Below the pieces are notes generated by a model that worked only from the letters and a program-made list of their open reading frames with translations, was not told the DNA's origin and made no database searches. From positions 372,001 to 436,000 of the forward strand of contig NZ_NFJF01000001.1 in the NCBI RefSeq assembly GCF_002159735.1: a DNA stretch of 64,000 bases, read 5' to 3'. Position numbers and translations under genes: made by a program. Source of the stretch: Olsenella sp. An270 (GTDB lineage Bacteria; Actinomycetota; Coriobacteriia; Coriobacteriales; Atopobiaceae). Shown in pieces: positions 26,157 to 26,945 of the stretch; the first letter of the stretch is position 1; each line of letters begins with the position of its first letter.

Positions 26157-26232
26157 GGGGATATAGCTCAGTTGGGAGAGCGCGTGACTGGCAGTCACGA
26201 GGTCAGGGGTTCGAACCCCCTTATCTCCACCA
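26157..26232 (+). tRNA. tRNA-Ala (anticodon GGC), copy 1
   Basis: The 76-nt cloverleaf is complete: acceptor GGGGATA paired with TATCTCC, anticodon stem CGTGA/TCACG with loop CTGGCAG (anticodon GGC), T arm AGGGG-TTCGAAC-CCCCT, and an encoded CCA. An identical copy lies at 26870. Confidence 0.97.
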
Positions 26233-26274: not shown

Positions 26275-26350
26275 GGGCTCATGGCGCAACGGTTAGCGCA
26301 GGGGACTCATAATCCCTGGGTTGCAGGTTCGAATCCTGCTGGGCCCACCA
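26275..26350 (+). tRNA. tRNA with anticodon CAU (elongator Met or Ile2)
   Basis: The 76-nt cloverleaf has acceptor GGGCTCA paired with TGGGCCC, anticodon stem GGGGA/TCCCT, loop CTCATAA (anticodon CAU), and an encoded CCA. The arm GACTCATAATC resembles that of lysidine-modified tRNA-Ile2, but elongator Met cannot be excluded by eye. The C1-A72-type mismatch of initiator tRNA is absent. Confidence 0.9.
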
Positions 26351-26359
26351 GATTGTCTC

Positions 26360-26395
26360 CGGCCCGGATGCCCGCACGGCGTCCGGGCCGTCGTC
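26360..26395 (+). terminator. strong hairpin after tRNA-CAU
   Basis: A 13-bp stem (CGGCCCGGATGCC with GGCGTCCGGGCCG, one G-U) encloses a 5-nt loop. No clear T-run follows, so terminator function is likely but not certain. Confidence 0.5.
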
Positions 26396-26404
26396 GTATC
26401 GGCC

Positions 26405-26703
26405 CGGGCATATCCGAGAATTGCCGGTCTTATCACGCGAGCGTCTAGGAATTGGCGCTCTTGTCGCTAGGGCCTCTAAGAATCGACGCCCTTGTCCCGT
26501 GCTTTTCTAAAGAATTGAGTGGTTGTCCGTCCAGGCGCCCTACAACAAGGACAACCCCTTGAATTTCTAGAGGCATGAGTGACAAAGGCGCGAATTTCTA
26601 GAAGCGAGAAGGACAAGGGCCGTAGTTTCTGGAGGCTGTCAGGACAAGGGCGCGACTTCCTGGAGTGCGTACGTGACGACGTCGAATACGCAGCGCAAAT
26701 GTA
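26405..26703. repeat. inverted array of exactly 31-bp-spaced degenerate units
   Basis: The gap 26351-26792 holds no protein gene. Its right half has units with GGACAA-like starts at 26549, 26580, 26611 and 26642, and a decayed one at 26673. Each consists of GGACAA, 6-7 variable bases, GAATT and TCTAG-like bases, then a variable tail. Its left half has the reverse complement, with TTGTC-like boxes at 26430, 26461, 26492 and 26523. All steps are exactly 31 bp. A 20-bp centre (26529-26548) joins the halves, so each left unit faces a right unit and could pair with it; the innermost pair gives 16 Watson-Crick and 3 G-T pairs over 22 positions. Confidence 0.85.
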
Positions 26704-26792: not shown

Positions 26793-26867
26793 GGGCGATT
26801 GGCTCAGGGGTAGAGCACTTCCTTCACACGGAAGGGGTCGCTGGTTCGAATCCAGCATCGCCCACCA
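26793..26867 (+). tRNA. tRNA-Val (anticodon CAC)
   Basis: The 75-nt cloverleaf has acceptor GGGCGAT paired with ATCGCCC, anticodon stem CTTCC/GGAAG with loop TTCACAC (anticodon CAC), T loop TTCGAAT, and an encoded CCA. A TAGGAT -10-like box lies at 26776-26781. Confidence 0.97.
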
Positions 26868-26869
26868 GC

Positions 26870-26945
26870 GGGGATATAGCTCAGTTGGGAGAGCGCGTGA
26901 CTGGCAGTCACGAGGTCAGGGGTTCGAACCCCCTTATCTCCACCA
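26870..26945 (+). tRNA. tRNA-Ala (anticodon GGC), copy 2
   Basis: This copy is identical over 76 nt to the one at 26157 and starts 2 nt after tRNA-Val, so the two are probably cotranscribed. A strong terminator follows. Confidence 0.97.

Follow-up and report, generated by a model that had tools for sequence, protein, structure and literature searches.

Between a tRNA-Met and a tRNA-Val gene of Olsenella sp. An270 (Atopobiaceae; RefSeq assembly GCF_002159735.1) lies an array of diverged repeat units with constant spacing, and the question raised by this locus is what keeps such units in phase. A folded transcript, a protein bound along one face of the DNA, a mobile element and plain tandem repetition could each be considered. 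In what follows, the window is the whole 64-kb stretch of DNA that was analysed, G000 is the genome to which it belongs, and other G numbers are related genomes.

The array at the tRNA locus

The array is intergenic (26405-26672) and consists of eight units in two face-to-face arms (Table 1). Every same-strand step is 31 bp, and the two arms are separated by 20 bp with a dyad at 26538.5. The original prediction placed boxes at 26430, 26461, 26492 and 26523 on the left and at 26549, 26580, 26611 and 26642 on the right, in exact 31-bp steps, as mirror halves about position 26538 and between tRNA genes. All eight boxes were found there with matrix scores of 11.4 to 33.6 bits, and the period, the symmetry and the two flanking tRNA genes were likewise confirmed. 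A further "decayed unit" proposed at 26673 scores -50 bits and is no unit.

Window units were scored with a matrix of 754 units of other loci, from which the window array and its two orthologues were excluded. Beyond the array, just two isolated matches above 11 bits are present in the window (13.3 and 11.5 bits). In 100 control windows, made by shuffling bases within blocks of 500 bp, best scores had a median of 9.3, matches above 13 bits averaged 0.2 per window and the top single score was 22.9. Since shuffled sequence can reach such scores, a lone unit could occur by chance, while eight phased units hardly could.

Table 1. Features of the array locus, in window coordinates
Feature	Position	Strand	Score or evidence
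tRNA-Met (cat), left neighbour (context)	26275..26350	+	ARAGORN and Rfam
GC-rich hairpin between tRNA-Met and array	26360..26390	+	13-bp arms, 92% complementary
Unit L4, outermost left	26405..26435	-	18.0 bits, leave-window-out matrix; 31 bp including 8-bp spacer
Unit L3	26436..26466	-	33.6 bits
Unit L2	26467..26497	-	33.3 bits
Unit L1, innermost left, degenerate	26498..26528	-	11.4 bits; could be reached by chance alone; placed by the 31-bp step
Variable centre, 20 bp, holding the dyad at 26538.5	26529..26548		18 of 20 bases the same in the orthologous array of G023
Unit R1, innermost right	26549..26579	+	18.0 bits
Unit R2	26580..26610	+	27.8 bits
Unit R3	26611..26641	+	23.6 bits
Unit R4, outermost right	26642..26672	+	23.4 bits
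tRNA-Val (cac), right neighbour (context)	26793..26867	+	ARAGORN and Rfam

Rfam at gathering thresholds yields tRNAs in the window and no other curated RNA family. At the GC-rich hairpin that precedes the array, a consensus terminator scan called no terminator; in G014 a hairpin followed by TTTTT occupies its place. Two tRNA-Ala (ggc) genes (26157-26232 and 26870-26945) bracket the block of tRNA-Met, array and tRNA-Val, and the order of tRNA genes in this block is identical in G023 and G014.

The array itself is also present between the matching tRNA gene pair in G023 and G014, and both relatives keep the 31-bp phase. The test by which the original prediction was to fail, close relatives without this phase or a lack of similar arrays in other places, did not refute it. 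Compared with its G023 orthologue, the window array shows substitutions together with one gain and one loss, each of exactly 31 bp, as the only indels inside. A 31-bp stretch over parts of R1 and R2 (approximately 26558-26591) is absent from G023, and G023 has an extra unit on the left.

Distribution and genomic surroundings of the family

The window array is one of at least 47 in its own genome, and many more are found in three sister species (G003, G014 and G023), demonstrating a dispersed intergenic family. A 442-base query from the locus gave 26 matches in G000, 22 in G003, 20 in G014, 11 in G023 and 2 in G022 among 40 genomes; G001 and G018 had one tRNA-region match each and the remaining 33 genomes none. 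A sequence-only model built from 37 arrays was run on 31 genomes of the genus and matched 11 of them. Matches listed were at least 140 in G000, 134 in G003, 127 in G014, 113 in G023, 37 in G040, 34 in G004, 11 in G022, 4 in G006, 3 in G044, 2 in G013 and 1 in G042, numbers in which one array is commonly matched on both strands and repeatedly. A single-unit pattern was found 137 times in G000, 125 in G003, 114 in G014, 65 in G023 and 5 in G022, with 0 or 1 match in each of the other 26 genomes, and the reversed control pattern matched once across all 31.

At greater distance, a two-unit pattern matched only G000, G003, G014 and G023 among 140 genomes of the family (35 genera). A near-identical two-unit pattern searched against 84,980 species genomes gave 46 stretches, belonging to Olsenella uli An820, an uncultured Olsenella bin, Atopobium sp. 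UBA1382 and one 3.8-kb contig labelled as uncultured Collinsella (L095, CASEEY010000155.1). The latter contains the two-unit pattern twice, reflecting either transfer or wrong binning. All five single-unit matches of G022 fall in one segment (L071, G022:C3:332400-345500) with two 31-bp arrays 6.8 kb apart. Stretches of this segment are 87% and 97% identical to G000, and judging from this similarity the G022 arrays were probably acquired by transfer. The two-unit pattern had no match in IMG/VR, and the array at L029 had none in plasmid and phage records; on these searches a phage, plasmid or viral origin was rejected. In the open-access literature searched, such arrays were not found for Olsenella or its relatives. 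A proS tree of the genus, meant to place gains and losses, was mostly unresolved and nothing here is built on it.

Genes around the arrays were called by a simple script, which assigned both neighbours for 43 arrays of G000. These lie between codirectional genes in 23 cases, convergent genes in 11 and divergent genes in 9. Gene 3' ends that face an array (window excluded) lie within 35 bp of it in 30 of 47 cases, and nine of the other 17 have a terminator-like hairpin before the array, as compared to 2% of random segments. Given these distances, transcription may extend into many arrays, which could then serve as terminators or roadblocks. Overlap of array and gene end by 13 bp occurs in six cases, where the TAG stop codon comes from CTAG in the outermost unit. 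The convergent locus L023 has no array in G006, G024 and G001, the two terminators there being close together; in G000 and G003 an array sits between the terminators, and in G023 the place holds other or decayed sequence. A palindrome (GTCCTTCTCGCC/GGCGAGAAGGAC; L187:2713-2753 and other loci) is found repeatedly beside genes and arrays of several congeners, perhaps as a terminator type that they share.

No protein family predominates among the 75 neighbours scanned out of 87 distinct ones, and the commonest Pfam domain, that of ABC transporters, occurs in six. A regulon of a single pathway was rejected since the neighbours are diverse.

Spacing, constraint and pairing

Geometry was measured on the stretches fetched from the four 31-bp species (G000, G003, G014 and G023), considering arrays of at least three units. 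These comprise 89 arrays and 780 units, including 47 arrays of G000, one of them single-armed near a contig end and one with a single unit on one side, and part only of the arrays of the other three species. Over the 89 arrays, the same-strand step is 31 bp in 568 of 593 cases (255/266 in G000, 39/41 in G023, 118/119 in G014 and 156/167 in G003). Single steps off this period measure 30 (nine), 32 (three), 29 (one), 41 (three) or 20 bp (one), so that most are off by 1-2 bases and four by a full turn; the others are approximately double or longer. Of 93 centres, 69 are 20 bp long and 12 more have 51 = 20 + 31 bp. Each unit is an asymmetric element of about 23 bp with two conserved blocks, within GGACAAGGGC and GATTCCTAGA, plus a spacer of about 8 bp; by direct inspection its consensus, GGACAAGGGCGGCGATTCCTAGA, is non-palindromic. 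Arrays contain up to 25 units.

Motif and spacing are both constrained. Identity of the 8-bp spacers between arrays is 0.340, matching the 0.344 expected from base composition, so the spacer is free to vary in sequence but not in length, while ten core positions have an identity of 0.871 between arrays. In five of seven orthologous pairs of G000 and G023 (L031/L040 and L180/L035, differing by more than 25%, were dropped) differences were counted at 21 of 341 core positions, 94 of 442 in the middle of the unit and 59 of 255 in the spacers, with 28 of 108 in the centre and 66 of 506 in the 60-bp flanks. In the orthologous pairs other than that of the window, which are more diverged, alignment gaps are irregular and not multiples of 31. 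The original prediction suggested selection on phasing, and the geometry argues for it: a period of 31 bp is kept while the spacers are saturated.

Two further congeners, G040 and G004, use a shifted motif (approximately GGGGAACCTCGCCGATTCCGGGACG), and the spacing of their related arrays is shifted by a whole turn. In 41 arrays (22 of G040 and 19 of G004), the 188 same-strand steps comprise 160 of 41 bp, 25 of 31 bp, two of 42 bp and one of 40 bp. Of the 41 centres, 30 are again 20 bp long, two measure 19 or 21 bp, and nine are close to 0, 10 or 30 bp. At least 10 of the 22 arrays in G040 and at least 7 of the 19 in G004 share their locus with an array of a 31-bp species, as judged by matches of both flanks; these are lower bounds, the arrays of G003, G014 and G023 being covered in part. 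At one shared locus G000 has two arrays about 5 kb apart. In the two arrays of G006, eight steps are 41 bp, two 31 bp, one 40 bp and one 30 bp. Such 10-bp differences, in steps as in centres, would follow from rotational phase on B-DNA and are unexpected for an RNA helix. Against a reading in whole turns stand the steps of 29, 30 and 32 bp and the irregular alignment gaps given above, and the genus also has dispersed arrays with periods of 19 bp (G001) and 30 bp (G044).

Several other arrays were noticed in the genus. One in G013 (L139, G013:C32:105513) has a strongly diverged unit, TGGTACAGAGGGC..TTTTCTCGGCA, with same-strand steps of 41, 41, 41 and 32 bp. In G017 (L237 and L252:18508; G017:C46, near 78.5 kb) the locus corresponding to L187 carries CGCAACGACCGCGATTCCCTAAC with two units per arm and 41-bp steps, and a seed search of 135 kb of this genome found one such four-unit array. 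The same kind of search in 140 kb of G001 found few arrays, of another period. G001 has another inverted family (L225, L256:13885) with unit GTGCGCACAACCG and steps of mostly 19 bp; at L225 (G001:C1:157600-158350) its arms have four and three units, and the same intergenic place has a 31-bp array in G000. G044 (L129, L138, L143) has small alternating arrays of GCGTTCCCGAAAGTG..GCTGTGGCAC with 30-bp steps, and in G042 (L130) units of AACGTGACTTTG.GCGAG alternate at distances of about 30 bp.

One simple possibility is that the arrays are plain tandem repeats, functionless minisatellites in which slippage or unequal exchange keeps the period. Spacer identity is indeed higher between neighbouring units of one arm (0.419) than between units from different arrays (0.340), indicating that units are gained and lost whole, and the window locus itself shows a gain and a loss of 31 bp. 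However, the spacers are randomised between arrays in which the ten core positions are still 87% identical, and core positions differ less than spacers between orthologues. Slippage would also not give a common 20-bp centre, opposed arms or a 41-bp period throughout G040 and G004. We regard this explanation as very improbable.

Another possibility is that the arrays are transcribed and that a long RNA hairpin is selected, whether as a small RNA, for protection of mRNA 3' ends or as a terminator. The arms are inverted, and many arrays start right after a stop codon, in accordance with the short distances to facing 3' ends given above. The hairpin of about 290 nt foreseen in the original prediction does fold well, with z-scores of -4.6 and -3.9 on the two strands of the window array, but any inverted array must do so. 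In 37 arrays, the covariation score was reached by just 31 of 500 shuffles and the percentage paired by 39 of 500, both values being a little high. Opposed units were also slightly more similar over positions 1-23 than shuffled partners (0.693 vs 0.684, p 0.0065; in a smaller set p was 0.06 for these positions and 0.77 for the spacer). The latter comparison precedes the control for unit index. Within a species, units that share an index but come from different arrays show even higher similarity (0.702) than the opposed units of a single array, the interaction being -0.011, and the p value of 0.0065 is thus explained by an effect of unit position.

Counts of the pairs themselves point the same way. 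Pairs changed on both sides number 42 in the 37 arrays vs 41.0 in shuffles, and pair types 122 vs 122.1, so that compensatory changes between opposed units, proposed as a check on a selected fold, are no more frequent than in shuffles. Complementarity of opposed spacers is no better than chance (p 0.52). In 22 of the 40 arrays of G040 and G004 that could be assessed, the two arms differ in their first step, and opposed units in these arrays cannot pair in register because of this inequality. Nine of the 43 assigned G000 arrays lie between divergent genes, and the array at L023 sits between two terminators that face each other. On pair counts, index control and arm register, we rejected the long RNA hairpin as a conserved feature; the folded RNA suggested as the object of selection is scarcely credible.

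Known repeat classes and a putative protein on one helical face

The usual explanations for dispersed bacterial repeats are transposase-mobilised palindromes and RNA hairpins. Other classes of phased or modular repeats are also known. CRISPR repeats have one orientation and unique spacers of about repeat length, and this class was rejected given the two opposed arms and 8-bp spacers found here. Iterons and parC-type centromeres offer phased sites, in some cases as two sets, to a single oligomerising protein, and they occur as single loci next to rep or par genes. The phased repeats described here resemble them, but occur in at least 47 chromosomal copies beside unrelated genes; with no common family in 75 neighbouring proteins and no match of L029 in plasmid records, an iteron or centromere array was rejected. 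BOX elements of Streptococcus pneumoniae are dispersed modular intergenic repeats with a variable number of differing A, B and C modules. On this description they share with our arrays the dispersed, intergenic and modular nature and the variable number, but in our arrays a single unit makes both arms.

REPs are 20-40-bp palindromes reported mainly between unidirectional and convergent ORFs (PMC3733652), and many REPs and BIMEs are associated with RAYTs or carry GTAG or CGTC tags (PMC2817692, PMC3733652). Our arrays resemble REPs, BIMEs and REPINs in being dispersed, intergenic, species-specific and multicopy, in occurring in both orientations and in diverging between species. They differ in that the unit is asymmetric and placed head to tail in two arms with steps of 31 or 41 bp, and, from REPs as reported, in that 9 of 43 arrays are between divergent genes. 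The RAYT-type family PF01797 has no match in G000 (98.6% complete), while 28 of the 31 genus genomes have some. Around seven PF01797 genes of five array-bearing genomes (G003, G014, G023, G040 and G004) no array was present in the fetched surroundings, which gave single weak matches of 16.5 and 15.9 bits in two stretches. We rejected the REP/BIME/REPIN class since the unit is not palindromic and G000 has no cognate RAYT gene flanked by the repeat.

The BrickBuilt MITE of Porphyromonas gingivalis is intergenic, with 19 copies in one genome and a tandem 23-nt repeat; its repeats are unspaced and lie between a leader and a tail with small inverted ends (PMC4596501). The likeness is that of an intergenic multicopy element with a tandem repeat of about 23 nt. 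The difference is that our arrays have spacers, opposed arms and a common centre, and that a leader or tail was not seen in them. The element is filed under none of the known classes compared, and for the tested classes other than MITEs the original prediction was right in seeing no fit to a known one.

A non-autonomous mobile element is the strongest rival explanation. Here the arrays would be MITE-like, with arms of repeated sites for a transposase that is lost or unknown, and the phasing would be that of a transposition complex. The presence of arrays at no fewer than 47 dispersed places in a few species, their variable unit number, the empty and filled states of L023 and the two-array segment of G022, which looks like transfer, are consistent with such mobility. 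On the other hand, no fixed ends were noticed, a comparison by eye of filled and empty L023 showed no target duplication, and unit number varies up to 25. PF01797 gives no support either, being without a match in G000 and without arrays beside it in the five genomes mentioned above, and plasmids, phages and IMG/VR contain no match at the sensitivity used. Many loci are common across species despite differing unit and period. Taken together, we consider a mobile element unlikely.

We favor the explanation that the arrays are binding platforms for a putative sequence-specific protein that would assemble on one helical face, and give it a probability of roughly two in three. Motif and spacing are constrained, species differ by whole turns and pairing is not conserved, and a row of protein sites on one face is the simplest reading of these properties. 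The binding of a protein to one DNA face was already proposed in the original prediction, and the geometry supports it: in G040 and G004 the step is mostly 41 = 31 + 10 bp and the centres fall near 0, 10, 20 or 30 bp.

Each asymmetric site of about 23 bp would be bound by a putative sequence-specific DNA-binding protein. Since sites recur every 31 bp (three turns), or every 41 bp (four turns) in G040 and G004, bound molecules would share one face of the DNA and could touch their neighbours. The two arms would meet head to head about two turns apart, resulting in a protein-covered intergenic tract of roughly 200-400 bp. For such a tract we infer that the most likely role is architectural or insulating, by separating transcription units or organising the chromosome, because the neighbours are unrelated and all gene orientations are represented. 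A roadblock to transcription from genes that end at an array is also possible. Placement on one face predicts that insertions of 10 bp are tolerated better than insertions of 5 bp.

A more tentative extension, to which we give less than an even chance, is that the arrays and a co-evolving DNA-binding protein form a chromosomal system in Atopobiaceae. The reach of the protein would have changed by one helical turn, from 31 to 41 bp, and its motif would have drifted, with arrays throughout the genome following at the same loci. The arrays of G006 and G013, which are on the 31/41 ladder and one of which has a strongly diverged unit, would then be further dialects. Arrays following their proteins would be a likeness to eukaryotic satellite and centromere arrays. 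What is conserved looks like a rotational phase on B-DNA, with three turns in some species and mostly four in others. Should a protein be responsible for the arrays, they would represent a new kind of chromosome-wide nucleoprotein element, and these species would offer a natural experiment in which a DNA-binding protein and dozens of its arrays have changed together.
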